Assembly (NCBI RefSeq): GCF_900636535.1
Contig: NZ_LR134289.1
Location: 1,178,001-1,242,000, forward strand
From: Chryseobacterium gleum
Lineage (GTDB): Bacteria > Bacteroidota > Bacteroidia > Flavobacteriales > Weeksellaceae
Reading direction: 5' to 3'
Length of the DNA stretch: 64,000 nucleotides
Shown: positions 23,787-40,868 of the stretch, one piece after another
How positions within the stretch are numbered: the stretch's first letter is position 1
Layout: each line of letters begins with the position of its first letter
Program-made: the position numbers and the translations under genes
Notes under the pieces: model-generated
The model's database searches: none
Told to the model about the DNA's origin: nothing
Seen by the model: only the letters and a program-made list of their open reading frames with translations

Positions 23787-23818
23787 AATTATCTGTTATA
23801 TTATTCTGAAACTTATGG

Positions 23819-23839
23819 AAAGCGGAAATTGTCCGCTTT
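23819..23839 (+). terminator. Terminator of the ketohexose operon
   Basis: AAAGCGGA (23819-23826) pairs with TCCGCTTT (23832-23839) around a 5-nt loop. Its 3' end adjoins the first direct repeat of the Dps promoter. Confidence 0.55.
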
Positions 23840-23842
23840 TCA

Positions 23843-23907
23843 CCGATTGATTCTGCCCGTTCGCCGAAAATACAGATTGTTTTCCAGGATTATGGCTGAC
23901 CTTTACC
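23843..23907 (+). promoter_or_regulatory. LytTR-type direct repeats and promoter of dps
   Basis: CACCGAT (CCGA at 23843) and CGCCGAA (CCGA at 23864) are direct repeats exactly 21 bp apart. TTTACC at 23902-23907 lies 38 bp after the second. The second repeat sits inside GCCCGTTCGCCGAA. A TTG at 23877-23879 may serve as the -33 element. Two other promoters in the window have identical spacing. A 21-bp period is the known spacing of LytTR response-regulator sites. Confidence 0.7.
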
Positions 23908-23947
23908 TCAGAAAAAGGCAATAATGCTCAACTAAAATCTTATTATT

Positions 23948-24421
23948 ATGAAAACAAAAATCGGAATTACAGAAAAAAACACGGAAGCTGTTGCAGAACA
24001 ATTAGCAAAACTATTAGCAGATGAAACACTGCTTTACATCAAAACAAGAAATGCCCACTGGAACGTAACCGGAGATAACTTCCATGCCAATCACATTTTC
24101 TTTGAAGAACAATACAAACAACTGGATGAACTGATAGACAGTGTTGCAGAAAGAATGCGTAAAATCGGGCATTATGCACCGGCCACGATGAAAATCTATC
24201 TGGAACTGACTCATTTAACGGAATACAGTGAAAGAACAAACGACGGTTTGGGATATATGAAAGACTTGTTAAGTGATCATGAAAGCATCATCGAATTTCT
24301 TCGTGGAAATATCACTCCATTTGCAGAAAAGTATAAAGATTACGGTACCAGCGATTTTATTACAGGTCTGATGGAAACCCATGAGGAAATGGCATGGATG
24401 ATCCGTTCCTATTTCAGATAA
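23948..24421 (+). CDS. dps: Dps-family DNA-binding ferritin
   Basis: A 157-aa Dps/MrgA protein. The ferroxidase motif runs NAHWNVTGDNFHANH then FFEEQYKQLDELID, giving the His, Asp and Glu ligands shared at subunit interfaces. It binds DNA and mineralises iron with hydrogen peroxide. Its promoter carries the LytTR-type repeats, and the LytTR regulator follows 54 nt downstream. A second Dps gene lies at 40395-40868. Confidence 0.93.
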   Translation: MKTKIGITEKNTEAVAEQLAKLLADETLLYIKTRNAHWNVTGDNFHANHIFFEEQYKQLDELIDSVAERMRKIGHYAPATMKIYLELTHLTEYSERTNDGLGYMKDLLSDHESIIEFLRGNITPFAEKYKDYGTSDFITGLMETHEEMAWMIRSYFR

Positions 24422-24443
24422 CACAAAATAAAAAAGTTATAAT

Positions 24444-24451
24444 TATCTTTG
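24444..24451 (+). promoter_or_regulatory. -7 box of the LytTR regulator gene
   Basis: TATCTTTG matches TAnnTTTG and lies 24 nt before the ATG at 24476. It sits between ACACAAA (24421-24427) and TTTGTGT (24448-24454), inverted arms that could also form a hairpin. Confidence 0.45.
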
Positions 24452-24475
24452 TGTAAACCATAAACAACTATACCT

Positions 24476-25171
24476 ATGAAAGCCTTAATCGTGGATGATA
24501 ATGATATTGCAAGAACAACATTAGCACACCTCGCCAAACAGGTTCCGGATCTTTCCATTGTCAGCGAGTTTTCCAATGCTATAGAAGCTTATCATTATCT
24601 TCAGTCCAATTCCGTCGATCTGATATTTCTCGATATAGAAATGCCGGAAATGACAGGAATTGAGCTCACGAAAACGCTTTCCGGTAAAGAGACCATCATC
24701 ATTTTCACGACCTCAAAAAAGGAATATGCACTGGAAGCATTTGAGCTTAATATTGCAGATTACCTTCTGAAGCCCATTATGCCGGTCAGATTTCTGCAGG
24801 CAGTAAGCAAGGCACAGACGATTCTTGAAAGCAGAAAAGAGAATGTGGAAATCACAAGGGATGAGTTTCTTTTCGTGAGGGATTCCAATATTACAAGGCG
24901 CTTAAAACTGGATGATATTTTCTATGCTGAAGCCATGGGTGATTATGTAAAGTTTTATACCAAAGAAAAGATGTTTGCCATTCACGGTAAAATGAAAACG
25001 GCTGAAGAACGTCTTCCTAAAGATCATTTTATAAGAGTTCACCGTTCCTATATTGTCTCTGTGGGTAAAATTGACACCCTTCAGGACGGCGGTATTATGA
25101 TCAACGGTAAATTCATTCCTGTGGCAGACGCCTACAGGAAAGCACTCAACACGAGAATGAATGTCTTTTAG
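24476..25171 (+). CDS. LytTR-family response regulator
   Basis: A 231-aa protein with a receiver domain at 1-120 (acidic DDND, phosphoacceptor Asp53 in LIFLDIEMPEMTG) and a LytTR DNA-binding domain at about 130-230 (FLFVRDSNITRRLKLDDI, HFIRVHRSYIVSV). LytTR proteins bind pairs of 9-bp direct repeats about 12 bp apart, which is a 21-bp period. Three such pairs lie within 6.2 kb around this gene. The hybrid kinase 107 nt downstream is the likely partner, although transfer through its Hpt domain is inferred. Confidence 0.93.
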   Translation: MKALIVDDNDIARTTLAHLAKQVPDLSIVSEFSNAIEAYHYLQSNSVDLIFLDIEMPEMTGIELTKTLSGKETIIIFTTSKKEYALEAFELNIADYLLKPIMPVRFLQAVSKAQTILESRKENVEITRDEFLFVRDSNITRRLKLDDIFYAEAMGDYVKFYTKEKMFAIHGKMKTAEERLPKDHFIRVHRSYIVSVGKIDTLQDGGIMINGKFIPVADAYRKALNTRMNVF

Positions 25172-25278
25172 CCTTTGCCGGCCATCAGAAATCTTACTTC
25201 CTTTTTTGATCTCAATTCCTGAACAGTTTAGGGTTTAATCAACCTTTATCTGTATTTTATTTAAATCAGACCGTTATT

Positions 25279-27486
25279 ATGAAAAATATATCTTCAGTAA
25301 TGGATAACAAGCGATTCAGCTATTTTATTATCCTGACATTTATTGCAGGCTCACTCCTGCTGATAGCTGTTCAGCTCAATTCTGCAGGAAATACCAAAGC
25401 GCTGATTCAGAATAACAATACCTTGCTGAGCGAATTACGTTCCAGCAATCATTTAAGGGAGATTGACCGTGATATTCTTGGAGTGGAAAGCAGAATCAGA
25501 GCTTCTATTGCAACGAATGACACCACGCATCTCGAAGGCATTGACCAAAAAATCAGTCAGATTGAAAATTTCCTGGATTCTCTGTCCAAAGACAATGTAA
25601 ATGCTGAGGAAGAAAAGCTGATCCACAGATTAAGCGTTCTTGCCATGGAAAAGAAAACAACCAAAGATAAACTCCTGCACCGTTACCTCTCTGTAGGAAA
25701 CATGGACGACAATACCTCCATTGCCAATCCGCGTGCAAGGAATATTTCCAATGAAATCACCAGAATCACAGCTAAAATATATGAAAGCAGAAAGCTGAAT
25801 ATGGTTGAACTCAGCCAGAAAAGTGAGGAAATGGGGCAGAAAGCAAGATTTTATGACATTTCAATATTGGTCTTACTGATTTTGGGCGGTTCTGTCGTTG
25901 GATATCACATTCTGAGACAGTTTAAACGCCAAAGGTTACTCATAAGCGAACTTGATATTGCGGAGAAAAAAGCATTGGTGGCGGCACAAACCAAGGAAAA
26001 CTTCCTTGCCAATATGAGCCATGAAATCAGAACTCCTTTAAGCGGAATTCTCGGTTTCACCAATTTGCTGCAAAAACGTCCTTTGGATGAAACCTCAGCG
26101 GAATTTGTCTCTTCCATACAGCGTTCCGGAGAAAACCTGATGGCCATCATCAATGACATTCTTGATTTATCCAAAATAGAAGCAGGAATGATGCGCATTA
26201 CCCCTGGAATTTTCAGCATCAACGGTCTGGTTAATTCCGTAGAAACATTTTTTACCGAACGGGCCAAAGAAAAAGGACTTACCATTTCCAGTACGATTGA
26301 ACCTTCCATTCCTGACACTTTGGTGGGAGATGCCACAAGACTGACGCAGATTTTAGTGAACCTCATCGGAAATGCCATAAAATTTACCCACCAGGGAAAT
26401 ATTACTGTTGAAATCTACAGTAAACAGCAAACAGAAAAAGAAGCTGTTCTCGGATTTAAAATTTCAGATACGGGAATTGGAATTGACAAAGAAAAGCTTA
26501 CTGAAATCTTTGAAAGATTCAATCAGGGAGAAGATTCAACGACAAGAAATTACGGAGGAACAGGATTAGGTTTATCCATCGTGAAAAGCTTAATTCTCCT
26601 GCAGAACGGAAACATTGAAGTAAGCAGTGAACCGGGGAAAGGAACTACATTTCACTTTTATATCCCTTACGGAATTGCTGAGGAACAGCTTACTGTTCTG
26701 CCTGCTGCTGATCCGCATTATTTTAAGGATAAATCCAACACACCTCTGAAAGTTCTGGTAGTTGATGACAATGTGATCAATCAAAGCCTGATGAAACATC
26801 TGCTTTCACAATGGAATATTGATTTTCATATTGCATCGAACGGTCTTGAAGCTGTAAGTTATCTTAAAAGCAATGCATGCGATCTGGTTTTAATGGATAT
26901 ACAGATGCCGCACATGGACGGATATGCAGCTACCCAGAAAATCCGGGAAGAACTCAGACTGGATATTCCGATCATCGCAATGACCGCCCATGCCCTGGCA
27001 GGCGAAAGAGAAAGATGCCTGAGCCGTGGGATGAACGAATATATTTCCAAGCCTGTCAATGAAGAAGAGCTGTTTATGCTGATTTCGAAGTTCGGGTTTA
27101 AAGAAACGAATAAAAACGAAAAGAAAACCGAAAATCCATCATCTGACTATCAGTATATTGATCTCTCTTATATGCAGACGGTGAGCGGCGGCGACAAAAG
27201 TTTCGAAAAAATGGTCACGCAACAGTTTATTGAGAACATTCCCAATCATCTACAGAAACTGATAGTGGCTTACGAAAACAAAGATTTTCAGGAGGTGGAA
27301 CTTTGGGCTCACGATCTGAAATCAAGTATTGCCATTATGGGATTACATCCTCTTTTAAAGGAAAAACTCGATATTATTGAGACAACTTCGGGAGAGAACC
27401 CTGATCTTCAAAAGATACTGGCAGAAGTACAGAAAGTTCTGTCAGAAGCAGTTTCAGAAGCTGAAGCATTTTCAAAAACAATTTAA
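25279..27486 (+). CDS. Hybrid sensor kinase with REC and Hpt domains
   Basis: A 735-aa protein. Two membrane segments (about 14-32 and 192-210) frame a helical periplasmic domain with CHASE3-like character. His248 in NMSHEIRTPL is the phosphoacceptor, followed by an HATPase (NLIGNAIKFTHQG, DTGIGIDKEKL, GGTGLGLSIVKSL), a receiver with Asp in LVLMDIQMPHMDG, and a C-terminal Hpt domain with His in WAHDLKSSIAIMG. The full His-Asp-His relay suggests transfer to a separate regulator, most likely the LytTR protein upstream. The old yellow enzyme gene follows after 11 nt. Confidence 0.92.
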   Translation: MKNISSVMDNKRFSYFIILTFIAGSLLLIAVQLNSAGNTKALIQNNNTLLSELRSSNHLREIDRDILGVESRIRASIATNDTTHLEGIDQKISQIENFLDSLSKDNVNAEEEKLIHRLSVLAMEKKTTKDKLLHRYLSVGNMDDNTSIANPRARNISNEITRITAKIYESRKLNMVELSQKSEEMGQKARFYDISILVLLILGGSVVGYHILRQFKRQRLLISELDIAEKKALVAAQTKENFLANMSHEIRTPLSGILGFTNLLQKRPLDETSAEFVSSIQRSGENLMAIINDILDLSKIEAGMMRITPGIFSINGLVNSVETFFTERAKEKGLTISSTIEPSIPDTLVGDATRLTQILVNLIGNAIKFTHQGNITVEIYSKQQTEKEAVLGFKISDTGIGIDKEKLTEIFERFNQGEDSTTRNYGGTGLGLSIVKSLILLQNGNIEVSSEPGKGTTFHFYIPYGIAEEQLTVLPAADPHYFKDKSNTPLKVLVVDDNVINQSLMKHLLSQWNIDFHIASNGLEAVSYLKSNACDLVLMDIQMPHMDGYAATQKIREELRLDIPIIAMTAHALAGERERCLSRGMNEYISKPVNEEELFMLISKFGFKETNKNEKKTENPSSDYQYIDLSYMQTVSGGDKSFEKMVTQQFIENIPNHLQKLIVAYENKDFQEVELWAHDLKSSIAIMGLHPLLKEKLDIIETTSGENPDLQKILAEVQKVLSEAVSEAEAFSKTI

Positions 27487-27497
27487 AAAAAGAAAAA

Positions 27498-28556
27498 ATG
27501 AATTTATTTTCACCCATACACATTCGCAATCTTACCCTAAAGAACAGAATTGTACTATCTCCAATGCAGCAATACAGTGCTGAAAACGGAATTCCCGGCA
27601 ACTGGCACCTTGTCCATCTCGGAAGTCGTGCTGTTGGCGGCGCAGGATTAATTCTTACCGAATGTACAGCTGTTTCAGAAGAAGGTCTGGCTACATTATC
27701 TGATGTAGGAATCTGGAATGATGAGCAGAAAAAAGCCTGGGAAAACATCGTGAATTTTGTACATGAGCAGAATGCCAAAATAGGAATTCAACTCTGGCAC
27801 GCCGGAGGAAAAGGAAGCCTGAAACATCCCAATGAAAGAATGAAACCCCTAACTCCGGAAGAAGGTGCCTGGACGGTAAAATCCTCCTCAGCTCACGAGT
27901 TCAACGGAGTTTTTGCAGAAGAGCTCACCATTGATGAGATCCAGGAACTGAAGACGAAATTCGTTAAAGCAGCTCTTCGTGCCGTTGAAGCAGGTTTTGA
28001 TACCATTGAACTTCACGCAGGCCATGGTTATTTATTTCATCAGTTTTATTCCGCAGTGATCAATAAAAGACAGGATGAATATGGCGGAAGTTTTGAGAAC
28101 AGAATCCGTTTTCTTGTAGAAACCGTTCAGGAAATCAGGAAAGTTATTCCTGCTGAAATGCCTCTGTTCGTAAGAATTTCTGCAGTTGACTATATAGAAT
28201 CGGATAAAGCCTGGACTCTGGAAGACAGCATTAAACTTTCAGAAATCCTTAAAGAAAACGGTGTAGATTTCATTACGGCATCCGGCGGAGGATTTACCAA
28301 TGTAAGCAAGGATAAAGTATTTCCGGGATATCAGGTTCCTTTTGCAAAAGCGATTAAAGAACAGACCGGGATTTTAACAGGAGCTGTCGGAATGATTACA
28401 GAAGCAGAACAGGCCAATGATATTATTGCCAAAGGAGATGCAGATCTGGTAATCATTGCCCGGGAACATCTTAGAGATCCTTATTTTGCTATTCATTCTG
28501 CCAAGACATTAGGTATTGAAACAGAAATTCCGTGGCAGTATAAAAGAGCATATTAA
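27498..28556 (+). CDS. YqjM-like old yellow enzyme (NADH:flavin oxidoreductase)
   Basis: A 352-aa FMN-dependent ene-reductase of the YqjM subclass. N-terminal NRIVLSPMQQYSAENG, the substrate His pair in ELHAGHGYLFHQF, and ITASGGGF and VIIAREHLRDPYF at the C-terminus are typical. It reduces activated carbon-carbon double bonds and is often induced by electrophiles or oxidative stress. The typical YqjM Cys near PMC is Gln here (PMQQYS), so redox tuning may differ. It is cotranscribed with the kinase upstream (11 nt) and the next gene (22 nt). Confidence 0.88.
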   Translation: MNLFSPIHIRNLTLKNRIVLSPMQQYSAENGIPGNWHLVHLGSRAVGGAGLILTECTAVSEEGLATLSDVGIWNDEQKKAWENIVNFVHEQNAKIGIQLWHAGGKGSLKHPNERMKPLTPEEGAWTVKSSSAHEFNGVFAEELTIDEIQELKTKFVKAALRAVEAGFDTIELHAGHGYLFHQFYSAVINKRQDEYGGSFENRIRFLVETVQEIRKVIPAEMPLFVRISAVDYIESDKAWTLEDSIKLSEILKENGVDFITASGGGFTNVSKDKVFPGYQVPFAKAIKEQTGILTGAVGMITEAEQANDIIAKGDADLVIIAREHLRDPYFAIHSAKTLGIETEIPWQYKRAY

Positions 28557-28578
28557 ATTAACCTATAAAAAATCAGTT

Positions 28579-29130
28579 ATGGAAAATCAGGGTGCCTCCG
28601 TAGTGATTACCCATCATATTCTGGATGGAAAACAATCACAGTATGAAAAATGGCTGGACGAAATTGTGCCTGTCACCAAACATTCTGAAGGCTTTATTGA
28701 TCTGCAGATTATTCGGCCGATTCCCGATCTGACTTTTGTGTATACCGTCATTATCCGTTTTGATACGATTAACCATCTTAAAAGCTGGATGGAATCGGAT
28801 AACCGGAAAAAACTCATTGAGAAAGCGAATCCGCTGTTCAGGAAAAACGACCATTATCAGATCAGATCCGGGCTTGATTTTCTTTTTACGACAGAAAATG
28901 AAGGGAATAAAGTTCCGGTACGCTGGAAACAGTTTCTGGCAACGTGGTCTGCCATTTATCCGCTGTCTGTACTTATTCCTGCTTTGATCATTCCTTTTTT
29001 ACGGTTTTTACATATTCCAGCCAATCATTATTCCGACGGATTCATCAATTCCGGAATTATTGTTTTTCTGATGGTGTTTGCCGTCATGCCCAATTATACC
29101 AGACTGATCAAAAAATGGCTGTATAAATAA
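28579..29130 (+). CDS. Antibiotic-biosynthesis-monooxygenase domain fused to membrane tail
   Basis: A 183-aa protein from the ATG at 28579; the frame from 28516 lies inside the previous gene. Residues about 8-95 form an ABM ferredoxin-like domain (VVITHHILDGKQSQYEKWLD, GFIDLQII). The rest holds two hydrophobic helices (about 128-146 and 155-174). ABM domains typically act as small oxygenases or sensors; a membrane-tethered version beside an old yellow enzyme suggests quinone or lipid chemistry, but that is inference. Confidence 0.7.
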   Translation: MENQGASVVITHHILDGKQSQYEKWLDEIVPVTKHSEGFIDLQIIRPIPDLTFVYTVIIRFDTINHLKSWMESDNRKKLIEKANPLFRKNDHYQIRSGLDFLFTTENEGNKVPVRWKQFLATWSAIYPLSVLIPALIIPFLRFLHIPANHYSDGFINSGIIVFLMVFAVMPNYTRLIKKWLYK

Positions 29131-29155
29131 CCACATTTAAAAATTATACTTCATC

Positions 29156-29178
29156 AATCACTGTAAACCACAGTGATT
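29156..29178 (+). terminator. Terminator after the OYE/ABM genes
   Basis: AATCACTGT pairs with ACAGTGATT in a 9-bp stem with a 5-nt loop, followed by a T run to 29183. Confidence 0.85.
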
Positions 29179-29233
29179 TTTTTGTTTTCAGGAACCTCGT
29201 CCTGTTACCATTTGAACCCCACCAGCTTATTCA

Positions 29234-29298
29234 ACGATACTTTCCGCCTGTTGACCGAACAGCAGTAAAAATAAGGACGGCCGGTTTGTAGCTTTACA
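29234..29298 (+). promoter_or_regulatory. LytTR-type direct repeats and promoter (site 2)
   Basis: TTCAACGAT (ACGA at 29234) and TTGACCGAA (CCGA at 29255) are direct repeats 21 bp apart. TTTACA at 29293 lies 38 bp after the second, inside TAGCTTTACA. The second repeat extends to GCCTGTTGACCGAA. No TTG lies at the -33 position, so an activator is expected. Confidence 0.72.
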
Positions 29299-29331
29299 TC
29301 ATCAATAACATAACAATCAAAATCAACAACT

Positions 29332-29889
29332 ATGGAAATCTTACAAACTCCCGAAAACGCACTATCTCACTCAAGCGTAAGTGCCATCATCAATGCACCC
29401 ATTGAAAAAGTGAATATCGCAGACTGGCTGCTTAATCTGCCGGACGCCGAATACCAGCGCTGCTCTACCCAGCATATCGGAGCTGCTATTTCAGTTACTT
29501 TTGATGGCAAACCTGTGTCTTTAAACGTAGAAACCATTGGAGATGCACTGATGGTACAACATTATATCGCAGATGTTCACCGTCCCGATTACTGCCGCAT
29601 GCTTTCCATCTCGGATTCAATTACCAAAAACGGGCGCACAAAAGTTCAGGTCTTATGGGAACTAAAAGTGACAAAGATTGATGAAAACACCTGTCTTTAC
29701 ACCAATGAAATTCATGCGACAGCTACTCCAGAAATGTTTGAATATATGAAAGAACACGGGATCAACCTTGCAGATGCCGCTGCATCCAGACAAGCCGCTT
29801 CTGATGCCCATAATCATGAAGAAACTCCAAATTTTGCAAAAAGCATTGAAAATAAAGCACTGACAGGTCAATATAACCAGCCTTTTTAA
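29332..29889 (+). CDS. Unknown 185-aa protein, possible SRPBCC fold
   Basis: I do not recognise this family. The 185-aa protein lacks a signal peptide and membrane segments. The pattern INAPIEKVNIADWLLNLPD followed by several predicted beta strands hints at an SRPBCC/START-like cup fold, but the support is weak. The C-terminus is polar and helical (AAASRQAASDAHNHEETPN). It is a single gene with a LytTR-type promoter, and the next gene has another. That placement suggests a stress role under the neighbouring two-component system. Confidence 0.6.
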   Translation: MEILQTPENALSHSSVSAIINAPIEKVNIADWLLNLPDAEYQRCSTQHIGAAISVTFDGKPVSLNVETIGDALMVQHYIADVHRPDYCRMLSISDSITKNGRTKVQVLWELKVTKIDENTCLYTNEIHATATPEMFEYMKEHGINLADAAASRQAASDAHNHEETPNFAKSIENKALTGQYNQPF

Positions 29890-29914
29890 AGCAACCAAAT
29901 CCTCTATATCCTCA

Positions 29915-29979
29915 ACGACTCATTTTGCCTTTTCACCGAATAATATTAAAAAAAGGTAAGATTTCGGGATAGCTTTACC
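29915..29979 (+). promoter_or_regulatory. LytTR-type direct repeats and promoter (site 3)
   Basis: CTCAACGAC (ACGA at 29915) and TTCACCGAA (CCGA at 29936) are 21 bp apart, and TTTACC at 29974 lies 38 bp after the second, inside TAGCTTTACC. The second repeat extends to GCCTTTTCACCGAA. There is no -33 TTG. The site drives the bicupin operon at 30018. Confidence 0.75.
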
Positions 29980-30017: not shown

Positions 30018-31064
30018 ATGAATCCTTCATCATTAAGTTTCAGATACGGATTAGAAAAAAAAGAACCGCGTACCAGTGACGGTGGTACAACAAGAGGTGC
30101 TTCCGTAAAAGAATTCCCTGCTTCTGTAGGCATTGCAGGAGTTTCCATGAGATTACAGCCCGGAAGTATGAGAGAACTTCACTGGCATGCCAATGCCGCA
30201 GAATGGGCGTATGTGATTTCAGGAACGGTGCGTACCACCATTATCCATCCGGACGGACGAAGTTATACTGATAATTTTGAACCCGGTGACGTATGGTATT
30301 TCCCGAAAGGCTACGGACATTCCATCCAGGCTACCGGAACAGAGGAATGCCACTTTATCCTGATTTTTGACAACGGTAATTTTTCGGAAGACCATACCTT
30401 CAGTGTTACAGATTTTGTTTCAAGTATGCCTCCTGAAATTGTTGCACAGAATTTAGGACTAAGCCTTGAAGAAGTAGCAGAACTTCCTCAGAAAGAAGTT
30501 TACTTTGCAGCAGGAGTTGTTCCGGATGAACTCTCCGTGCATGCCACAGCCCGTCCTGAGGAATCAGACATTGAACTGATAAGTCTTCACCGCTATCCTC
30601 TGCATTCCCAGCAGCCAAGAATCATTCCCGGCGGAGGTCTCCAAAGATTGGTTACGAGTAAGGAATTTCCGATCAGCACCACAATGGCAGGTTCTGTACT
30701 GGAGCTGCAGCCCGGAGCTTTAAGAGAAATGCACTGGCATCCTAATGCCGATGAGTGGCAGTATTTTATATCCGGACAGGCAGAAATGTCGGTATTCCTG
30801 GCAGAAGGAGTTTCTGTTACAGAACAGTTCAATGCCGGTGATGTGGGCTATGTCCCTATGGGAGCCGGGCATTATATCAAAAATACCGGAGATACCGTCT
30901 GTAAAGTATTGATCGGATTTAATAGCGGCACCTATGAGTCCATTGATATCAGCGAGTGGCTGGCAGGAAACCCTAAAGATGTGGTCATTACGAATTTCGG
31001 GCTGAAGGAAGGAGAAATAGAAAAATTTCCGGAAAAGAAAGTATTCATCAAACCTGGAAAATAA
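30018..31064 (+). CDS. Bicupin, oxalate decarboxylase-like
   Basis: A 348-aa protein with two cupin domains. Each shows a metal site: LHWHANAAEWAYVISG with GYGHSI, and MHWHPNADEWQYFISG with GAGHYI. These give the three His and one Glu manganese ligands seen in oxalate decarboxylase. The Bacillus OxdC enzyme is about 385 aa, so this one is slightly short. It has no signal peptide. In the operon it is followed 5 nt later by a DUF1275 gene. Oxalate decarboxylation (proton-consuming) or another organic acid reaction is possible; the active-site lid was not checked. Confidence 0.85.
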   Translation: MNPSSLSFRYGLEKKEPRTSDGGTTRGASVKEFPASVGIAGVSMRLQPGSMRELHWHANAAEWAYVISGTVRTTIIHPDGRSYTDNFEPGDVWYFPKGYGHSIQATGTEECHFILIFDNGNFSEDHTFSVTDFVSSMPPEIVAQNLGLSLEEVAELPQKEVYFAAGVVPDELSVHATARPEESDIELISLHRYPLHSQQPRIIPGGGLQRLVTSKEFPISTTMAGSVLELQPGALREMHWHPNADEWQYFISGQAEMSVFLAEGVSVTEQFNAGDVGYVPMGAGHYIKNTGDTVCKVLIGFNSGTYESIDISEWLAGNPKDVVITNFGLKEGEIEKFPEKKVFIKPGK

Positions 31065-31069
31065 CTCCT

Positions 31070-31762
31070 GTGCTTCCGGAAACAAAAATCCTGCTTCCTG
31101 ACAAAATCGTCAGAACGCAGGAGAAACTGGCAGTATTCCTTGCTTTTATCGCAGGATATACAGATGCTACAGGACTGATACAATGGAAAACCTACGTTTC
31201 TTTTATGAGCGGCAATACAACCCAGTTAGGTGCAGCAGTTTTTAGTGAAAAATATGGTGTTATCATCAGTTCTGTCATTGTAATCAGCTTTTTTCTGGCG
31301 GGGATTTATACAGGAACGTGTCTATCATTATCAAAGAAGCTCAGAAGCACAAAGATGATCTTCTATACAGTTTCCGGAATCATGGTCCTTTACAGTATCA
31401 GTGATTATTATGAAGATATTGCCAATGAAGTGTCTATAGCTGTTATCGGTTTCTCAATGGGTCTTATGAACACCATTGTCACTTCGGTAGGTAACCAAAA
31501 GATCAACACCGATTTTGTGACAGGAACTTTAAACAGCCTGGCAAGAACAGCTGCTCTTTTTGTGATGAGTGATCACGCAGAGGAGCGGAAGGAATACAAA
31601 GTAAATATTTTTCATTTGTTATTCTTATGGATGGGCTTTCTCTCCGGTGCTTCAGCAGCTCCTTTCCTGCTCTTTTATTCAGGAAACTGGACACTGATCT
31701 TTCCGGCAGCCTTACTGCTCATCTGTGCATTCACAATACCAATTCCAACGTTTAAAAACTAA
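31070..31762 (+). CDS. DUF1275 (YoaK-type) membrane protein
   Basis: A 230-aa membrane protein with six predicted helices and the conserved GYTDATG and FMSGNTTQLG blocks of DUF1275. Start is a GTG codon, 5 nt after the bicupin stop; the next in-frame ATG falls inside the conserved block, so GTG is the better choice. Function of the family is unknown. A paralogue lies at 39725-40390, also near a Dps gene. Confidence 0.8.
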   Translation: MLPETKILLPDKIVRTQEKLAVFLAFIAGYTDATGLIQWKTYVSFMSGNTTQLGAAVFSEKYGVIISSVIVISFFLAGIYTGTCLSLSKKLRSTKMIFYTVSGIMVLYSISDYYEDIANEVSIAVIGFSMGLMNTIVTSVGNQKINTDFVTGTLNSLARTAALFVMSDHAEERKEYKVNIFHLLFLWMGFLSGASAAPFLLFYSGNWTLIFPAALLLICAFTIPIPTFKN

Positions 31763-31766
31763 TTCT

Positions 31767-32228
31767 ATGCTACAAAAAAATATGGTTGCCCCTGATTTTA
31801 CATTATTTGCAACCCCGGATCAGAAGATTACCTTATCCGAATTCAGAGGACGAAACGTTATCCTTGCATTTTACCCGGCAGACTGGAGCCCGGTGTGTAG
31901 TGACCAGATGGCATTGTACAACGAAATGCTGAAGTATTTCAAAAAATATGATGCGGAAATTTTCGGAATTTCCGTAGACAGCAAATGGTGCCACCTGGCA
32001 TTTTCACAATCCAGAAACCTGCACTTTCCACTGCTTGCAGACTTTGAAGCCAAAGGAGAAACAGCCAGGAAATATGGTGTTTACAATGACGACGAAGGAG
32101 AATGCAACAGAGCCCTGTTTGTCATCACTAAAGACGGTCTCATCGAATGGAGCTATCTCTCTCCCACCGCCATCAATCCTGGCGCAGACGGAATTTTAGA
32201 AGCATTAGAAAACCTTAACACGAAATAA
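31767..32228 (+). CDS. Peroxiredoxin (AhpC/TSA family)
   Basis: A 153-aa peroxiredoxin from the ATG at 31767; the frame from 31725 adds 14 residues inside the previous gene. The peroxidatic Cys is in DWSPVCSDQ, with the Thr of the usual TPxC replaced by Ser. A second Cys in SVDSKWCHLAF may act in resolution. It reduces hydrogen or organic peroxides in the cytoplasm. It is spaced 4 nt from DUF1275 and 2 nt from the DsbA-like gene, consistent with one operon. Confidence 0.87.
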   Translation: MLQKNMVAPDFTLFATPDQKITLSEFRGRNVILAFYPADWSPVCSDQMALYNEMLKYFKKYDAEIFGISVDSKWCHLAFSQSRNLHFPLLADFEAKGETARKYGVYNDDEGECNRALFVITKDGLIEWSYLSPTAINPGADGILEALENLNTK

Positions 32229-32230
32229 TT

Positions 32231-32749
32231 ATGTCACTTAAACCATCAGTCAGCAATGCTGACCACACTCAGGGCAACTCAGATGCCAGCTTAGTCATTG
32301 TAGAATACGGGGATTATCAGTGTCCTTACTGCGGAGCAGCCTATCCGGTTCTTAAAGAATTAATGAAAGAATTCGGAAATCAGATCAGATTTGTATTCAG
32401 AAATTTTCCGCTGTCAGAAATGCATCAGTATGCAAGAACGGCAGCGCTGGCGGCAGAAGCGGCAGCTTTGCAGGGAAAATTCTGGGAAATGCATGATGCT
32501 ATTTATGAAAACCAAGAATATCTGAATGCTGATCTTCCGTTAAAGCTTGCAGAAAAACTGGGTTTAAATATCCCTCAGTTCAAAGCTGATATTCATAAGA
32601 AGGAATTAGCAGAAAAGGTAGATACAGACTTTGAAAGCGGTATCATCAGCGGCGTGAACGGAACGCCTTCATTTTTCATTAACGGAAATAAATTCAATGG
32701 CGGTGCAGAAGATCTTTTTCAATTGGTACGAGAAAATGCAGCCTATTAA
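32231..32749 (+). CDS. DsbA-family thioredoxin-fold protein
   Basis: A 172-aa protein with the CPYC redox motif in YGDYQCPYCGAAYPVL and cis-Pro in GVNGTPSFFING. It belongs to the DsbA/Thioredoxin_4 family but lacks a signal peptide, so it probably works in the cytoplasm. It may recycle the peroxiredoxin, which precedes it by 2 nt. The alpha/beta hydrolase remnant follows after 47 nt. Confidence 0.85.
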   Translation: MSLKPSVSNADHTQGNSDASLVIVEYGDYQCPYCGAAYPVLKELMKEFGNQIRFVFRNFPLSEMHQYARTAALAAEAAALQGKFWEMHDAIYENQEYLNADLPLKLAEKLGLNIPQFKADIHKKELAEKVDTDFESGIISGVNGTPSFFINGNKFNGGAEDLFQLVRENAAY

Positions 32750-32796: not shown

Positions 32797-33618
32797 ATGA
32801 GCACATTAACCTTAAAAGACGGAACAGAAATTTTTTACAAAGATCAGGGAGAAGGACCTGTATTAATGTTTCACCACGGATAGCCTTTATCATCTGATGA
32901 TTGGGATGCACAGGTAATCTTTTTCCTTAAGAAAGGCTACAGAGTGGTTACCCACGACAGAAGAGGCCACGGGCGTTCCAGCCAGAATATCTACAATCAC
33001 ACTATTGAACAATATGCATCTGATGCTGCAGAACTGGTTGAATTTTTAGACTTGAAAGATGTTGTACACATCGGACATTCAACAGGTGGTGGTGAAGTGA
33101 TCCGTTATGTGAATAAATATTCCAATGGAAGAGCTAAGAAAGCGGTTCTGATCAGCGCCATTCCACCGGTAATGGTGAAAAGTGAGAATAATCCTGACGG
33201 CGTTCCTATGGAGGTTTTCGACAATATAAGGGAACAGACGATGAACAACAGAAATCAGTTTTACTATGATCTGACTTTCCCTTTCTACGGCTACAACAGA
33301 GAAGGAGCGAACGTAAAAGATGGAATTCAGAGAAACTGGTGGAGACAAGGGCTAATGGGAGGAATCGTGGCACATTATGATGGGATCAAAGCCTTTTCAG
33401 AAACCGATTTAACCGAAGACTTAAAAGCTGTTGACATTCCTGTTTTGGTAATGCATGGCGAAGATGACCAGATCGTTCCTATTGCCAATGCGGCATTAAA
33501 ATCAATTAAATTATTAAAGAACGGAAAGCTGATCACGTATCCGGGATTCCCTCATGGTATGCCGACTACAGAGCATCCAACCATCAACAAAGACCTTCTT
33601 GAATTTATCAGATCTTAA
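32797..33618 (+). pseudogene. Alpha/beta hydrolase broken by an amber codon
   Basis: The frame begins at ATG 32797 and would be 273 aa, exactly the length of the intact gene at 46369-47190, with about 95 percent identical residues. Codon 29 is TAG at 32881-32883, where the intact copy has TGG (Trp of HHGWPL, the oxyanion motif). A restart at GTG 32944 would give 224 aa without that motif. The rest keeps the nucleophile motif GHSTGG and catalytic HGMP, so the loss is recent. A sequencing error or recoding is possible but unsupported. Confidence 0.85.
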
Positions 33619-33643: not shown

Positions 33644-33668
33644 AAGATGAACTTTACTGGTTCATCTT
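33644..33668 (+). terminator. Terminator of the bicupin operon
   Basis: AAGATGAAC pairs with GTTCATCTT in a 9-bp stem with a 7-nt loop, followed by a T run. It lies 25 nt after the hydrolase remnant. Confidence 0.85.
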
Positions 33669-33750: not shown

Positions 33751-35310
33751 ATGAGTAAGCCTTCTGATCCCAATGCAGAAATGATGAAACGCCTGCAGGA
33801 AATGCAGAAAGAACAGCTTATGATTTCCCGTTTAACCAAAGAGTTGTCTACCATTTTAGATAAGAAACAGCTTCAGCTTGTTATCAATACATCTTTCAAA
33901 ACTGAACTGGGATTCAATGATTGTATGATGATCAGGGATATAAAAGGAAATATTGAAATATTAGGCATCGGGACTGAAAATCAGAATCATACCACAGACC
34001 AACAGCTTGACAGGTATGTAAAAAACTGTCTTGATTCTGCGGAGCTTCTTCTTTTTGATCTTAAAGAACTGTCACCCCTTCCTTCCTGTTTTACCAAAGC
34101 TAAAAATTCGGGGATGCGGATGGCTGTCGGATTGGGACTGCCGGCTGTCAGTGAAAGTAAAAATGTACTCTTTCTTTTCTACAAAAGCTTTATTTCAAGA
34201 GATACAATTCCGGAAAGAATTTTAAACGGTATTTCTACCCAGCTTTCCATTACCTTCCATAATATAGATGTTCAGGAACAGTTGAAAACATTTCAGGGAA
34301 ATATCCGGGACTTTCCGAAAGAAGTTAAAGAAGAAAAGAAAAGCGAACACGGCTTTCATGGAATTGTGGGACAAAGTGAAGCCATGCAGTTCATTTTTGA
34401 ACAGATTACACAGGTAGCTCCTTCACAATCCAACGTGATTATCTTTGGAGAGACGGGTACAGGAAAAGAACTTATAGCACAGGCGGTTCATGAACTTTCG
34501 GAATTTTCGGGAAAGAAAATGATCAGGATAAACTGTGCGGCTATTCCTGCCAATTTAATAGAATCTGAACTTTTCGGGCATGAAAAAGGAAGCTTTACTG
34601 GAGCAACAGAGCAGCGGAAAGGAAAGTTTGAACAGGCCCATAACAGCACTATTTTCCTGGATGAAATTGGTGAACTTCCTCTGGAATTACAAGCGAGGCT
34701 TCTGAGGGTTCTTCAGGAAAAAGAAATTGAAAGAATCGGGGGAAACAAAAGGATTAAGGTGAATGCGCGGATCATTACGGCCACCAACAGGAATCTTGAA
34801 AAAGAAGTGGCGGAAGGAAGATTCAGGCTGGATCTGTATTACCGTTTGAATGTATTTCCTATTGAACTGCCTCCGCTGAGAGAAAGAAAAGAGGATATTC
34901 CTTTGCTGGCAGACTATTTCCTTGAAAAACTCTATCCTAAGACAGGCAAAAAGATTAATGGTTTTTCTCAGAACGTAGTCAAAATGATGATGGCTAATCC
35001 ATGGTTGGGTAATATCCGTGAACTGGAAAATATGGTTGAAAGAAGTATGCTGACGGCAAAAGGGGATATCATCAGGGAAATGGATTTTCCGAAAGTTATC
35101 AATTACCAAAATACAGATCAGGAGGTTCAGGTTAAAACGCTTCAGGAATTTGAAAAGGAATATATTCTAAAAATAATCAAAAAATGTAACGGCCGTATTT
35201 TCGGGGAAATAGGCGCTGCCAAATTACTGGGATTGCCTCCGACAACGCTTATTTCCAAAATGCAGAAACTTGGAATAGAGAAAAAACATTATTTCAGGGA
35301 GTCTGAATAA
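33751..35310 (+). CDS. Sigma-54 activator with GAF-like sensor
   Basis: A 519-aa enhancer-binding protein. An N-terminal GAF-like region (about 10-190) is followed by the AAA+ domain with Walker A GETGTGKE, the sigma-54 contact loop [15 protein letters not shown], Walker [10 protein letters not shown] and the R-finger area [15 protein letters not shown] Fis-type HTH ends it. It activates promoters of the -24/-12 type with ATP. Its AAA+ domain is nearly identical in long blocks to that of the regulator at 36047-37399, pointing to duplication. I could not find a convincing -24/-12 site in the window. Confidence 0.9.
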
Positions 35311-35930
35311 TCTTTGTAAAGCCCCATTTCTATTTTCCCGGAAGACAAAGCCCAGAAAATCCAGAGTCCTAAAATGATCATCAAAGAAACCGCCGGTATC
35401 CAGAACGACAGGATTAAAGCAATAACATAGATGGGAAGCCCATATAAATAATTATTATGGATCTTTTTTATAGCCGCATCGGTAATACCGGGACGCAAAA
35501 GTTTTTTATTCCGTGTGGCCAGAAACCATAATAAATTGTAAGCAAGATTGATCAGGACAAAAATACCGGTATAAAGCGCTACAACAACAGAGGAAGCTTC
35601 ACCATCAAAATACCTTGCCAGCAAAGCGGTCGGATAAGAAACTGCCGAAACCAGAAAAAGGATCAGTCCATTGGCAAACATAATTGCAGAATTCCTGATG
35701 TAGATCTGTTTGAAAATCTTATGATGGTTTACCCACATGATAAAAATACTGAAAAATGAAAGGATAAATGCCAGAAATGCCGGCCATTGATTCTTCAGAA
35801 AGACCAGCAGATCATTCCCGTTCTGTATTGAATGTTCTTCAGGAAAATGAAGATCCAGCACCAAAAGCGTAACGGCTATTGCAAAAACACCATCGCTGAA
35901 CCCTTCTATTCTGAGCGTTTCTTTTTCCAT
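35289..35930 (-). CDS. TMEM175-family potassium channel-like protein
   Basis: A 213-aa membrane protein. The signature [19 protein letters not shown] at the first helix is that of bacterial TMEM175 channels (DUF1211), which conduct potassium. Six hydrophobic segments are visible. The 3' end overlaps the convergent sigma-54 activator gene by 22 nt. It is unpaired with a kinase or any other ion gene, and its role here is uncertain. Confidence 0.85.
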
Positions 35931-36046
35931 AATTACCTGATTGATTTATGATTCTAAAGACATAATAATTTTGTCCTCCAATTATTTGAAGAATTATAAT
36001 TAAAAAATTGTAAGAAAATAGGGTTTCCGGTTAGCTTTCCCCGGAA

Positions 36047-37399
36047 TTATTTATAGCCTTTGTCAATTCCCAGTTTTTTCATTTTGGAATATAAAGTCTG
36101 AGCTTGTATCTTCAGCAGCTCTGCAGCGCCACCCGGCCCGGAAACTTTTCCGTTGGAAGTCTGAAGCGCACTCATGATATGATCTCTTTCCATATCTTCC
36201 AATGATTTCAGTGGCCCTTGTATTTCTGTAGGCTTTTCAATGATTTTGGGCAGATCGAAGCTTTCTATTTCTGTGGTCTTGGCCAGAAGAACACTTCTTT
36301 CAATAAGATGCTCCAGCTCACGGATATTGCCAGGCCATTGATAATTTAACAGCTGTTCTAATGCTTTTTCACTGATGGATGTGATATTTCTTCTCGAAGC
36401 AGCGGCATATTTATTCAGGAAAAAATGGGCCAGCAAGACGATATCTTCCTTTCTTTCTCTCAGCGGAGGCAGCTCAATAGGGAAAACATTCAAACGGTAA
36501 TACAGATCCAGCCTGAATCTTCCTTCTGCCACTTCTTTTTCCAGGGAACGGTTGGTAGCAGCTACAATTCTTACGTTTACTTTAACCGTATTATTTCCTC
36601 CCAGCCGTTCAATTTCTTTTTCCTGTAAAACTCTCAGTAATTTAACCTGTGAATCCAGTGGCAGCTCCCCTATTTCATCCAGGAAGACGGTTCCACCGTT
36701 GGCTTGTTCAAATTTTCCGATCCTCAATGTATTGGCTCCGGTGAAACTTCCTTTTTCGTGTCCGAAAAGCTCAGATTCGATAAGCGCATGCGGCAGGGCG
36801 GCACAGTTGACCACAACAATAGGATGGGCTTTACGTTCTGAAAGCTCATGAACGGAATGGGCTACTTTTTCCTTTCCTGTTCCGCTTTCCCCGACCACCA
36901 GAACAGACGTATCTGTAGGAGCTACCACCCTTATTTTTTCAACAACATCCTGAAGTACCTTGCTTTTCCCGATAATTCCTTCAATGACTTCGTTATTTCC
37001 GGTATCAGTACACAATTCACAGCCTCTTTCCATGTCATAGCGGTATCTGGCAATGTCAAGCATAACAATCATGTCACGTTCCCGGAAGGGTTTTACCATA
37101 AATCCGTAAGGCTGTGTTTCTTTCACTGCTTCCAGAGTAGACTGGTTGGTATTGGCTGAAATATAAAGAAAAGGAAGATTCATTTCACGCAGTTCCCAGG
37201 CAAGATCGATTCCTGTGAGGTCACCTTTTAAGATGATATCAAGAAGCACCCAATCCGGCTTATTATCTGCAATCAGTTTTCTGGCCTGAACCACTGAAGA
37301 TGCAATACCCGTGACCTGATAACCGGCTTTCATCAGCATCAGTTTCAGATCATTGGCTACAATAAATTCATCTTCTACAATTAATATTTTTTCTTTCAT
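36047..37399 (-). CDS. Sigma-54-dependent response regulator (NtrC type)
   Basis: A 450-aa protein with a receiver (DWVLLDIILKGDLTG with Asp), AAA+ domain ([32 protein letters not shown]) and Fis HTH. The upstream TPR kinase gene ends 12 nt before it, so they form a two-component pair. The receiver lacks the usual MP after the phosphoacceptor Asp (DIILKGDL). Its AAA+ domain shares long identical blocks with the activator at 33751-35310. Confidence 0.92.
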   Translation of the reverse strand: MKEKILIVEDEFIVANDLKLMLMKAGYQVTGIASSVVQARKLIADNKPDWVLLDIILKGDLTGIDLAWELREMNLPFLYISANTNQSTLEAVKETQPYGFMVKPFRERDMIVMLDIARYRYDMERGCELCTDTGNNEVIEGIIGKSKVLQDVVEKIRVVAPTDTSVLVVGESGTGKEKVAHSVHELSERKAHPIVVVNCAALPHALIESELFGHEKGSFTGANTLRIGKFEQANGGTVFLDEIGELPLDSQVKLLRVLQEKEIERLGGNNTVKVNVRIVAATNRSLEKEVAEGRFRLDLYYRLNVFPIELPPLRERKEDIVLLAHFFLNKYAAASRRNITSISEKALEQLLNYQWPGNIRELEHLIERSVLLAKTTEIESFDLPKIIEKPTEIQGPLKSLEDMERDHIMSALQTSNGKVSGPGGAAELLKIQAQTLYSKMKKLGIDKGYK

Positions 37400-37411
37400 A
37401 ATAATCAGCCT

Positions 37412-39679
37412 TTAATTTGAAGGAGTTATTTCTGTATTTTTTCTGAAGGTAATCGTCACTTTTAAGCCCCCTTTGTTTTCGAGATGGAAGGTTCCGTCCA
37501 ACTGGTCGGTAAGCCCGCGCATCAGATTCATTCCCAAAGAATCTGTTTCTTCGATATTAAAATCTTCAGGAAGCCCTACTCCATTATCTGAAATCATTAG
37601 TTCACAAAGATCTTCGTCGGTATTTTTAAATGAAACAAAAACTTCCCCTTTGCGGTCATCCGGAAATGCATATTTTACGGTATTATTGACCGCTTCATTG
37701 ACGATCAGTCCCATAGGAACGGCCTGTGCCACGTCAAGAAACACTTTATCAGTATCCACCGTAAAGTTGATTTTCCTTTCGGATGAATAACATTCTTTGA
37801 TATAGGTAATCAGCTCATAAATATACCACGACATGTCAATCATTGAAAGATTGTCAGACTGATAAAGCTTCTGGTGGATCAGGGACATCGCGTGCATTCT
37901 GTGCTGGCTGTTCTGGATGGCCATCAGGGCATCTTCATTGTCCAGATAAGCCGACTGTGTATTAAGTAAACTGATCACAATCTGCAGGTTATTTTTAACC
38001 CTGTGATGGATTTCCTTTAAAAGCCATTCTTTCTCAGAAAGTAATTTCTTCAGTTGCTCATTCTGCTCATCAATCTGCTTACGTTTCAGTTCCAGGTTTT
38101 TATTGGCATTGCTTTTTAATCTTGAACGGTTATACAGCAAAGCAGCAAAAAGGATCAGCGCCAGAATACTTCCAATGAAAACATATCTGATAAAGGTATC
38201 ATTGGCAATTTTAATATCCTGCAGTTTTGCTTTCTGGGTCAGCAGCTGAATATTTTTATCTTTCTGTTCTGTCTCAAACTGAATTTTAAGGCTGTTGATC
38301 TGCTTGCTTTTTTCGCCGTTAAAAACAGAATCAGAAAGTTTTTTGTACAGCTGATAATGTTGTATGGCATCAAGGTATTTTCCCTGTATGGAATCTGCCT
38401 TAAACCACATTAAATGATTCTCCGAACGAAGCATATCATTTCCGTTATTTTTAGCTATTGAATCAAAAAGTCTGGCTTCACGGTACATTTTATTAAAGTT
38501 CCGGGTCTGGTAATGATAGAAAACAAAGCTCCGCAGCAATGAGGCCTGTTGGTTATTTTTTTCAGCATTTTCACCATAATAGGCCACCAGTTTTTTGTAG
38601 TAGGCTTCCGCTTCGTTAAACTGCTTTAGAATAGTGTAGGTGCTGAACAGGATATAGTTTTCCGACATTTCAAAATTCTGATCTACAATAGGATACTTTT
38701 CTCTGTATTCCTGAATCATGGTAATGGCCTGCTTAAATTTTTTCTGCCTGATCAGCATCGTAGAAATATTATTGGCCACCGTTCTGATGTAAGTATTATC
38801 TTTGTTTTTCTTTGCTGTGGCAAGTGATTTTTCCCAATACTTCATGGCATCATCATTCTTACGGAGATAGTAATACACCATTCCGATATTGCTGTAAATA
38901 GAGCACATCTGTAAAGAATAATCATTCACACTTTCAGCTGTTTTTTCAGCAAGAAGACCATAACGGAGCGCTTCCTCATAATCCGCCTTCTGAATTTCAA
39001 CCTGGGAGATAAGGTTATAGACACTCTGTAATTCTCTGAATTTCACAGACTGATAAACAGACAGGGATTGTTTAAGTAAGCCCAGAGCCTTATCAGCATT
39101 TTCTTTGATGTAGTAAAGTTCACCCAGATCTTTTAAAACGCCTGCCTGATTCAGTTTTGATCCTGAATTCTTAAACAGTTCCAATGCTTTTTCTTTCAGT
39201 TTGATTTTAGTATCAAAATATTCGGGTTTATTGTCATACATATATGATAATTCATTGTATGCTTCTCCGGCCTGCTCTTTAAAATGATTTTTTTCAAAAT
39301 AAGAAAGCGCCTGTTTCATGTTGGAAAAAGCAATCGTTTTACGGCCTCTTTCTTTATCTATTTTGGCATCCAGAAAGATGAGTTTTCCGGCAGACAACGG
39401 ATCCTCGGATTTCATATTGAGTGCTTTTGCCTGTCTGTTAAGAATAGCGGCACTGTCGAGATCAGCTTTCAACTCTCCTTTTTTAGTAATGTAATAGTTA
39501 CTCAGACGCAGCAATAAAGCGATTTTCTGAGTAGTATTGGTGGAAGAGGAAATCTGTTTTCTCAACAGTGCAGGATTTTCCTGGATCTGTGCTTTTGTAT
39601 TGCATGAAAACATCAAAACCAACGAAAAAAATACTATCCTTAGTAGATTTTTAGATAAAAAATAAAGGCCGAAATTCAT
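37412..39679 (-). CDS. TPR sensor kinase, HisKA_2 class
   Basis: A 755-aa protein with a signal peptide or lipoprotein-like leader (LMFSC near residue 26), an all-helical TPR region (about 40-470), one membrane segment (about 497-518), a coiled coil, then a HisKA_2 phosphoacceptor region (EIHHRVKNNLQIVISLL) and an HATPase (NEAVNNTVKYAF, SDNGVGLPED). It probably senses a periplasmic signal with its TPRs. The regulator follows by 12 nt. Confidence 0.9.
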   Translation of the reverse strand: MNFGLYFLSKNLLRIVFFSLVLMFSCNTKAQIQENPALLRKQISSSTNTTQKIALLLRLSNYYITKKGELKADLDSAAILNRQAKALNMKSEDPLSAGKLIFLDAKIDKERGRKTIAFSNMKQALSYFEKNHFKEQAGEAYNELSYMYDNKPEYFDTKIKLKEKALELFKNSGSKLNQAGVLKDLGELYYIKENADKALGLLKQSLSVYQSVKFRELQSVYNLISQVEIQKADYEEALRYGLLAEKTAESVNDYSLQMCSIYSNIGMVYYYLRKNDDAMKYWEKSLATAKKNKDNTYIRTVANNISTMLIRQKKFKQAITMIQEYREKYPIVDQNFEMSENYILFSTYTILKQFNEAEAYYKKLVAYYGENAEKNNQQASLLRSFVFYHYQTRNFNKMYREARLFDSIAKNNGNDMLRSENHLMWFKADSIQGKYLDAIQHYQLYKKLSDSVFNGEKSKQINSLKIQFETEQKDKNIQLLTQKAKLQDIKIANDTFIRYVFIGSILALILFAALLYNRSRLKSNANKNLELKRKQIDEQNEQLKKLLSEKEWLLKEIHHRVKNNLQIVISLLNTQSAYLDNEDALMAIQNSQHRMHAMSLIHQKLYQSDNLSMIDMSWYIYELITYIKECYSSERKINFTVDTDKVFLDVAQAVPMGLIVNEAVNNTVKYAFPDDRKGEVFVSFKNTDEDLCELMISDNGVGLPEDFNIEETDSLGMNLMRGLTDQLDGTFHLENKGGLKVTITFRKNTEITPSN

Positions 39680-40394: not shown

Positions 40395-40868
40395 CTATTT
40401 TAAATGTGAACGCAGCATCCAGGCCATTTTCTCATGAGTTTCCAGTAATCCTGTGATATAGTCGCTTGTTCCTGGATCACGGAATTCAACAGCAAAGTTT
40501 TCAATATTTTCACGAAGATGAATGATGATGCTTTCATGGTCGGAAAGAAGTGCTCTGATGTAAGTCAGGCTGTCGTTCGATTCCAGATGATGCTCAGACA
40601 AATGGGTTAATGCAAGATATTCCCTTAAAGTAGCCGGAGCGTAATGCCCAAGCGTTCTGATTCTTTCTGCCAGATCGTCGATGATGTCGTCCAGCTGCCC
40701 GTATTGTGCCTCGAAAAACAGGTGTTTATTGTAAAAATCCGGTCCTTCCACATTCCAATGTGCTTTTCTTGTTTTGGTATACAATACAAATTCGTCTGCT
40801 AAGGTGGTAACCAGTACTTCAGCAACTTTTGCTAAATTTTCGTTTTTAATTCCGATTGAAGTTTTCAT
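40395..40868 (-). CDS. dps: Dps-family DNA-binding ferritin, second copy
   Basis: A 157-aa Dps protein of the same length as the gene at 23948. Ferroxidase motif KAHWNVEGPDFYNKH then FFEAQYGQLDDIIDDLAER. It mineralises iron and protects DNA. It is the eighth of nine closely spaced minus-strand genes, with a 1-nt gap to the DoxX gene. It lacks the LytTR-type promoter seen at the first copy, so the two copies are probably expressed under different conditions. Confidence 0.93.
   Translation of the reverse strand: MKTSIGIKNENLAKVAEVLVTTLADEFVLYTKTRKAHWNVEGPDFYNKHLFFEAQYGQLDDIIDDLAERIRTLGHYAPATLREYLALTHLSEHHLESNDSLTYIRALLSDHESIIIHLRENIENFAVEFRDPGTSDYITGLLETHEKMAWMLRSHLK

Follow-up and report, generated by a model that had tools for sequence, protein, structure and literature searches.

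We identified three promoters in Chryseobacterium gleum that share a rigidly spaced putative operator and lie beside a gene for a LytTR response regulator. The window, by which we mean the whole 64,000-nucleotide stretch that was analysed (assembly GCF_900636535.1, contig NZ_LR134289.1, positions 1,178,001 to 1,242,000), carries these sites ahead of dps, ahead of a gene for a 185-residue protein referred to here as U185, and ahead of a bicupin gene. On the evidence of sequence comparison, we consider it very likely that the LytTR regulator encoded at 24476 uses the three sites as operators and that, fed by the adjacent hybrid histidine kinase, it activates three transcription units including its own.

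All three sites lie on the forward strand and share the pattern TCAMCGA-N4-TTNYGCC-N2-TTSRCCGAA, a direct repeat with CGA cores 21 bp apart, followed by TTTAC 38 bp 3' of the second core; the match among them is exact and well above chance. Operator 1 (23840..23868), upstream of dps, consists of TCACCGA (23840-23846), TTCTGCC (23851-23857) and TTCGCCGAA (23860-23868). Operator 2 (29231..29259), upstream of U185, has TCAACGA (29231-29237), TTCCGCC (29242-29248) and TTGACCGAA (29251-29259), and operator 3 (29912..29940), upstream of the bicupin gene, has TCAACGA (29912-29918), TTTTGCC (29923-29929) and TTCACCGAA (29932-29940). The corresponding -7 promoter boxes, also on the forward strand, are GACCTTTAC for dps (23898..23906) and TAGCTTTAC for both U185 (29289..29297) and the bicupin (29970..29978). 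The initial annotation of this DNA had placed the paired cores at 23843/23864, 29234/29255 and 29915/29936 and TTTAC at 23902, 29293 and 29974, all of which proved correct on recheck. The two repeat elements it described, TCAMCGA and GCCYKTTSRCCGAA, are present in all three sites, and TTNYGCC between them is a further common element. It had also likened the minus-strand reading of the first repeat to the published LytTR consensus core. The reading it gave, ATCGTTGAA, is found in site 2, whereas sites 1 and 3 have ATCGGTGAA and GTCGTTGAG instead. Such a resemblance is in any case weak evidence, because LytTR sites have geometry rather than sequence in common (PMC4847170). By eye, a hairpin (GAAAGCGGA...TCCGCTTTTC, 23818-23842, forward strand) can be drawn downstream of a sugar operon, touching operator 1; a terminator scan gave no call there.

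Across the 5,606,922 bp of the genome the two-box pattern finds only these three at 0-1 mismatch; the 7 remaining matches all have 3 mismatches, and the total of 10 compares with 13 for a reversed-pattern control. A second two-box variant gave one additional match, with 2 mismatches, at 5190207, which was lost when the -7 box was demanded, and the two boxes plus the -7 box leave the three window sites alone. We also built a weight matrix from a training set that includes the three window sites (training sites score at least 38, and weaker sites were accepted above 20). In the window the operators score 55.3, 54.8 and 61.5 in order, and all else scores -15 or lower; the maximum in ten shuffled 20-kb loci was -19.

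To place the sites in a wider context, we compared the window with 45 loci encoding a LytTR of at least 60% identity, from Chryseobacterium, Epilithonimonas, Flavobacterium, Sphingobacterium, Pedobacter and Dyadobacter; many of these loci are close relatives, and counts of loci are not counts of independent events. When only the two boxes were used for selection, 43 of the 46 sources yielded 107 sites in total. TTTA follows at the same offset in 106 of them, and TTTAC in 94. The sources lacking a two-box site are L106, L107 and L108 (L numbers denote fetched loci, G numbers genomes), the first of which has weaker sites. The consensus of the 107 sites is TCAaCGAcTcaTTTTGCCyrTTCAcCGAA, and its CG, GC and CG cores are 10-11 bp apart, a spacing that would align them along the same side of the helix. 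A second site with TTCA in place of TTTA in the box was seen in both Dyadobacter loci (L105, 15518, and L106, 14768, each on the minus strand), and the one in L105 precedes a 331-residue gene.

Across these loci, a site stands upstream of the bicupin gene in 34 of 34 cases and upstream of U185 in 27 of 28, the remaining one scoring 13. The initial annotation expected the pattern upstream of orthologous dps genes wherever the regulator is kept, and it is there in 40 of 44 loci. The exceptions are three Sphingobacterium loci, where weaker sites (scores 23-29) precede a unit made up of U185 and dps, and L107, where dps (60%) and LytTR (64%) are both divergent and dps has no site, with weaker sites elsewhere in that genome. 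No site scoring above 20 was found upstream of the genes for LytTR (0/45), the kinase (0/43), the old yellow enzyme (0/25), the ABM-domain protein (0/37), DUF1275 (0/24) or the DsbA-like protein (0/36). The peroxiredoxin gene has an upstream site in 3 of 33 loci, all three being loci in which the bicupin was not found. When an intact relative was used as query for the alpha/beta hydrolase, a site lay within 450 bp in 5 of 28 loci; in L082 and L092 the hydrolase-side sites are additional. These counts indicate that the site marks operon heads.

The likeness of the promoters could in principle reflect shared ancestry alone, with promoters copied within one cassette and no common regulator, and the genes of the cassette are indeed clustered and travel together. 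We find this extremely improbable. The motif columns are strongly conserved, the 30-bp spacer and the flanks carry almost no information and the length of the spacer is nevertheless exact; moreover, the U185, bicupin and hydrolase promoters retain the motif after rearrangement and in trans.

The link to the LytTR regulator comes from the distribution of the sites among genomes. Within the genus, 49 of 148 genomes encode a LytTR orthologue of 80-100% identity, and the next listed relative has 44% identity. The 28-bp two-box pattern with at most 2 mismatches has at least two matches in all 49 of these (mean 3.35, control 0.35). Among the 99 LytTR-negative genomes 33 have a match, which is the control level (mean 0.42 versus 0.47), and two or more matches occur in 7/99 compared with 5/99 in the control. 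Requiring the two boxes and the -7 box at exact spacing (at most 3 mismatches) selects 49 of the 148 genomes, identical to the 49 with LytTR, none of the 99 others and no control matches. A hypergeometric figure for this overlap takes no account of how closely the genomes are related, and we do not treat it as a p-value. The initial annotation had raised the prospect of the pattern at unrelated promoters in genomes without the LytTR gene; besides the genus result, a class-wide draw of 295 genomes gave sites in the three genomes with a LytTR of at least 81% identity and in one other genome. The genus also has dps, U185 and bicupin relatives of other types (43-65% identity, compared with at least 87% for the cassette type). 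Among the LytTR-negative genomes, a distant dps (64% at most) is present in 18, a distant bicupin in 13 and a distant U185 in one, and all of these genomes lack a site with the box. The stretches around the bicupin relatives in 7 of those 13 genomes and around that distant U185 gave matrix maxima of -18 or lower, as did those around two U185 paralogues from genomes that do encode the LytTR. Similarly, the second dps paralogue of the window (40401-40868, minus strand, 60% identical to the first) has no operator in the matrix scan. Clustering of open reading frames in 43 loci placed dps in 43, the kinase in 43, LytTR in 42 (in all by BLAST) and the ABM protein in 37, with others in fewer. Of the universal cassette proteins, dps, kinase and LytTR, only the last has a sequence-specific DNA-binding domain.

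Co-occurrence, register and placement thus support the LytTR regulator as controller of the three sites, as the initial annotation proposed, with binding as the step that we infer. Direct repeats with a 21-bp period are also compatible with other families of regulators, such as AraC. Another transcription factor, encoded elsewhere with the same phyletic pattern, might therefore read the operator while LytTR controls something else; the unusual middle core TTTTGCC and the site-like sequences in two genomes without a close LytTR (G440 and G279) would fit such a factor. It would, however, have to match the 49/148 distribution of LytTR exactly and would leave the sole universal DNA-binding protein of the cassette without a part at its operators, and neither the window's dps paralogue nor the 18 LytTR-negative genomes with a distant dps carry a site for it to read. 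We judge this alternative improbable.

Sites away from the regulator gene bear most directly on control by LytTR. In G051, U185 and its site are on a different contig from the regulator. G046, a single chromosome, has a site 510 kb off, ahead of a gene with an M17_N domain and an alpha/beta hydrolase gene. G126 has a site with a spacer 1 bp longer ahead of a hydrolase gene, and G321 has one ahead of a rearranged bicupin on a different contig; all four genomes encode a close LytTR. The site in G107, again with 1 bp more of spacer, is on a short contig with further cassette genes, and its separation from the regulator is probably a mere contig break. A rearranged and shortened Pedobacter bicupin (L169, 1603-1953, forward strand) has retained its operator on a contig other than that of the regulator.

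Several observations weigh against control by LytTR or limit its reach. In the genus sample dps, LytTR and the operator are never apart, so that needing LytTR and belonging to the cassette are not separable there and only the few trans sites distinguish them. The spacer is not entirely invariant, being 1 bp longer in the G107 and G126 sites, and the conserved TTTTGCC between the repeats is absent from the LytTR sites as described in the sources consulted. In the class-wide draw, G279 has a single, well-scoring site with 2 mismatches (box 27) and a nearest LytTR of 37%, and G256 and G375, with LytTR at 49-52%, have no site at 2 mismatches or fewer. Four genomes with LytTR at 60-68% were scanned whole, with 3 mismatches or fewer allowed. 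Each of the two Dyadobacter genomes (67-68%) has two sites, G441 (61%) has none, and G440 (Pedobacter rhizosphaerae, 64%) has only two weak pattern matches, scoring 19.1 and 5.4, and no site at its dps. The weak sites of G440 are on a contig other than that of its LytTR, where a U185 of the cassette type (91%) and a DsbA gene (56%) also lie, and this U185 carries its own weak tandem site (matrix 17.5); no LytTR closer than 64% was found in that genome. This can mean that a divergent regulator or a relative reads altered sites, or that sites decay when no close regulator is present. Taken together, comparison of these genomes indicates that the link weakens once LytTR identity falls to 49-64%, where sites are weaker, shifted or not found. 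At several DNA-binding-domain positions where the site-bearing set is invariant, the Pedobacter relatives in L107 and L108 (60-64%) have other residues, and possibly their specificity has changed; reading these loci by eye for a separate operator gave nothing convincing.

The G279 site (L163, 1565, minus strand) stands alone, 100 bp ahead of a 123-residue receiver protein that starts a run of receiver-domain genes. In G440 (L180), weak sites at 8024-8114 (forward), 11535 (minus) and 13082 (minus) precede U185, the DsbA gene and another gene, and one of them consists of three 21-bp repeats.

The arrangement of operator and promoter suggests how the regulator could act. Bacteroidota promoters differ from those of model bacteria, and across 118 sites the -7 box is mostly TAnnTTTA (TA in 78, GA in 37), while TTG at -33 is not enriched (18 of the 118 sites versus an average of 14.2 after shuffling). 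In Flavobacterium psychrophilum the -7 box TAnnTTTG spans -12 to -5 (PMC9723704). The gap between operator and -7 box is constant, which puts the operators upstream of the core promoter, and by analogy with F. psychrophilum the repeats would occupy about -70 to -64 and -50 to -42 relative to the start. Their position near the distance used by AgrA, together with the lack of enriched TTG at -33, favours an activator that contacts RNA polymerase. A LytTR protein can also repress, as does CoxC, whose binding sites are three direct repeats that overlap the -35 box (PMC11347149), and our regulator might similarly be a repressor relieved on phosphorylation. This seems rather unlikely to us, as the repeats are upstream of the -7 box and not across it, at about the AgrA distance, and promoters without an enriched -33 TTG are of the kind that suits an activator.

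We therefore favour LytTR-dependent activation, and the domains of the proteins suggest the following course. The neighbouring hybrid kinase of the membrane (HisKA-REC-Hpt) would sense stress and hand phosphate to the LytTR receiver. Two regulator molecules might then occupy the direct repeats, with their 21-bp period, on the same helix face at about -70 to -42, and bring RNA polymerase to a promoter with a -7 box (TAnCTTTAC or GAnCTTTAC) and no enriched TTG at -33. This would jointly activate dps-LytTR-kinase-old yellow enzyme-ABM, U185, and bicupin-DUF1275-peroxiredoxin-DsbA-hydrolase. The dps site heads the unit that contains the regulator, which points to autoregulation, probably positive. 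Sites do head all three members of the regulon as initially annotated (dps, U185 and the bicupin operon), but that regulon was drawn too small, since the dps unit also comprises the regulator, the kinase, the old yellow enzyme and the ABM protein. The presence of Dps, peroxiredoxin, a DsbA-like protein, old yellow enzyme and bicupin suggests that the stress is oxidative, electrophilic or acid.

The genes of the three units, all on the forward strand, are as follows. The dps gene (23948..24421, Ferritin-like by domain search) opens the first unit, and a copy of at least 87% identity occurs in 49/49 LytTR-positive genomes of the genus. The regulator and a hybrid kinase had been placed between sites 1 and 2, and Pfam agrees. 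The regulator (24476..25171) has REC and LytTR domains, both above cut-off (Response_reg 79.3 bits, 3.1e-22; LytTR 70.2 bits, 1.8e-19), and the kinase (25279..27486), our candidate phosphate donor, is HisKA-HATPase-REC-Hpt and accompanies dps in 43/43 loci. An old-yellow-enzyme oxidoreductase (27498..28556, by family search) and the ABM-domain protein (28582..29130; Pfam ABM 22.5 bits, slightly under the cut-off of 23.1) complete this unit. U185 (29332..29889) has no Pfam or NCBIfam match. Its structure model (pLDDT 92.6) has 3tfz as top Foldseek match (E 2.2e-6) and matches 208 PDB chains at E of 0.001 or less, the 50 listed being mostly START/Bet v1-like, and a SRPBCC/START helix-grip fold is predicted. 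The third unit contains the bicupin (30018..31064), of the oxalate decarboxylase family (TIGR03404, 361 bits versus a cut-off of 254), followed by three genes assigned by Pfam, DUF1275 (31070..31762), an AhpC/TSA peroxiredoxin (31764..32228) and a DsbA-like thioredoxin-fold protein (32231..32749), and by an alpha/beta hydrolase (32797..33618) whose 29th codon is an in-frame stop here (the intact relative has 273 residues). Terminator-like hairpins at 29156..29178 and 33644..33668 fit the division into these three units; each hairpin alone is weak, the scan giving 12 terminator-like sites in the region versus 10.7 in shuffles. A sigma-70 promoter scan of the region gave matches at shuffle level. 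Two sigma-54 activators and a TPR histidine kinase adjoin the cassette (33751-39679), with relatives of some in L085 and L107. The sigma-54 activators (33751-37399) were considered as regulators and rejected, as they are not kept in the cassette across loci.

The kinase-regulator pair is almost certainly the FaRpfC-FaYpdB pair of Flavobacterium akiainvivens IK-1, a putative quorum sensing system proposed from genome comparison (PMC6801697). Our L104 is the same strain, with the adjacent CHASE3-HisKA-HATPase-REC-HPT kinase and REC-LytTR regulator, and the best relatives of the pair are in Chryseobacterium and Epilithonimonas. With the third Met taken as the kinase start, the gap in L104 equals the published 212 bp; measured to the first Met it is 191 bp. 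Section 2.9 of that paper, in contrast to the present work, gives neither operator nor targets, and its main text nowhere mentions dps. We found no report of an operator or regulon for this pair in a literature search that reached few subscription journals, and the LytTR passages of PMC10710014 and PMC7440613 have no bearing on the dps-LytTR system. The regulon we propose suggests a role in stress defence, but the pair may still respond to a quorum signal.

The cassette is patchy in the genus (49/148) and occurs in four families. A quick tree of LytTR plus kinase nests Flavobacterium akiainvivens (L104) within Chryseobacterium (SH-aLRT 95-99), and horizontal transfer of the cassette is likely on these sequence data. 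More tentatively, it could be a horizontally travelling Bacteroidota stress module with its own phosphorelay, in which the operator-promoter (TCAaCGA, TTTTGCC, TTCAcCGAA, fixed gap, TAnCTTTAC) serves as a portable address that recruits genes; the operator might then be a LytTR variant with three helically phased cores, not two. To our knowledge, regulons described at sequence level are scarce for Bacteroidota, and the analysis yields a well-delimited operator together with a candidate regulator and a kinase, and fixes the promoter register exactly, all of it accessible in Chryseobacterium, Flavobacterium and Pedobacter strains that can be cultured. A single stress response under phosphorelay control is predicted to comprise dps, peroxiredoxin, old yellow enzyme, bicupin and a START-fold protein. 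If so, what has until now been put forward as a quorum sensing system would gain a different role, and regulon members could be read from sequence in new genomes.

LytTR sites have been described as direct repeats of 9-11 nucleotides with 11-13 nucleotides between them and with no common consensus (PMC4847170). The 21-bp period of the window sites and of the 107-site consensus is within this geometry, in line with the likeness first noted in the initial annotation. The clearly repeated bases number seven (TCAaCGA / TCAcCGA), and a 9-nucleotide unit with 12 between is one possible drawing. Among characterized members of the family, HdrR of Streptococcus mutans has a pair of 9-bp direct repeats, 12 bp apart, ahead of its own promoter, with positive autoregulation (PMC6193735), AgrA of Staphylococcus aureus has direct repeats centred near -60 (PMC4227749) and YpdB of E. 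coli has a direct repeat (PMC4847170). Unlike these, the sites described here combine TCAaCGA / TCAcCGAA repeats with a third core, TTTTGCC, midway, a Bacteroidota -7 box and a dps/redox regulon. The CoxC repeats, 18-21 bp apart, and those of RcoM, with 12-13 bp between them, are similarly spaced (PMC11347149); theirs, however, are three repeats of other sequence, whereas here a pair surrounds a middle core whose sequence does not duplicate theirs. The conserved middle core and the rigid register are the unusual features, and what we describe is a probable new regulon that uses an operator geometry already known and that, beyond the initial proposal, takes in autoregulation and targets in trans.

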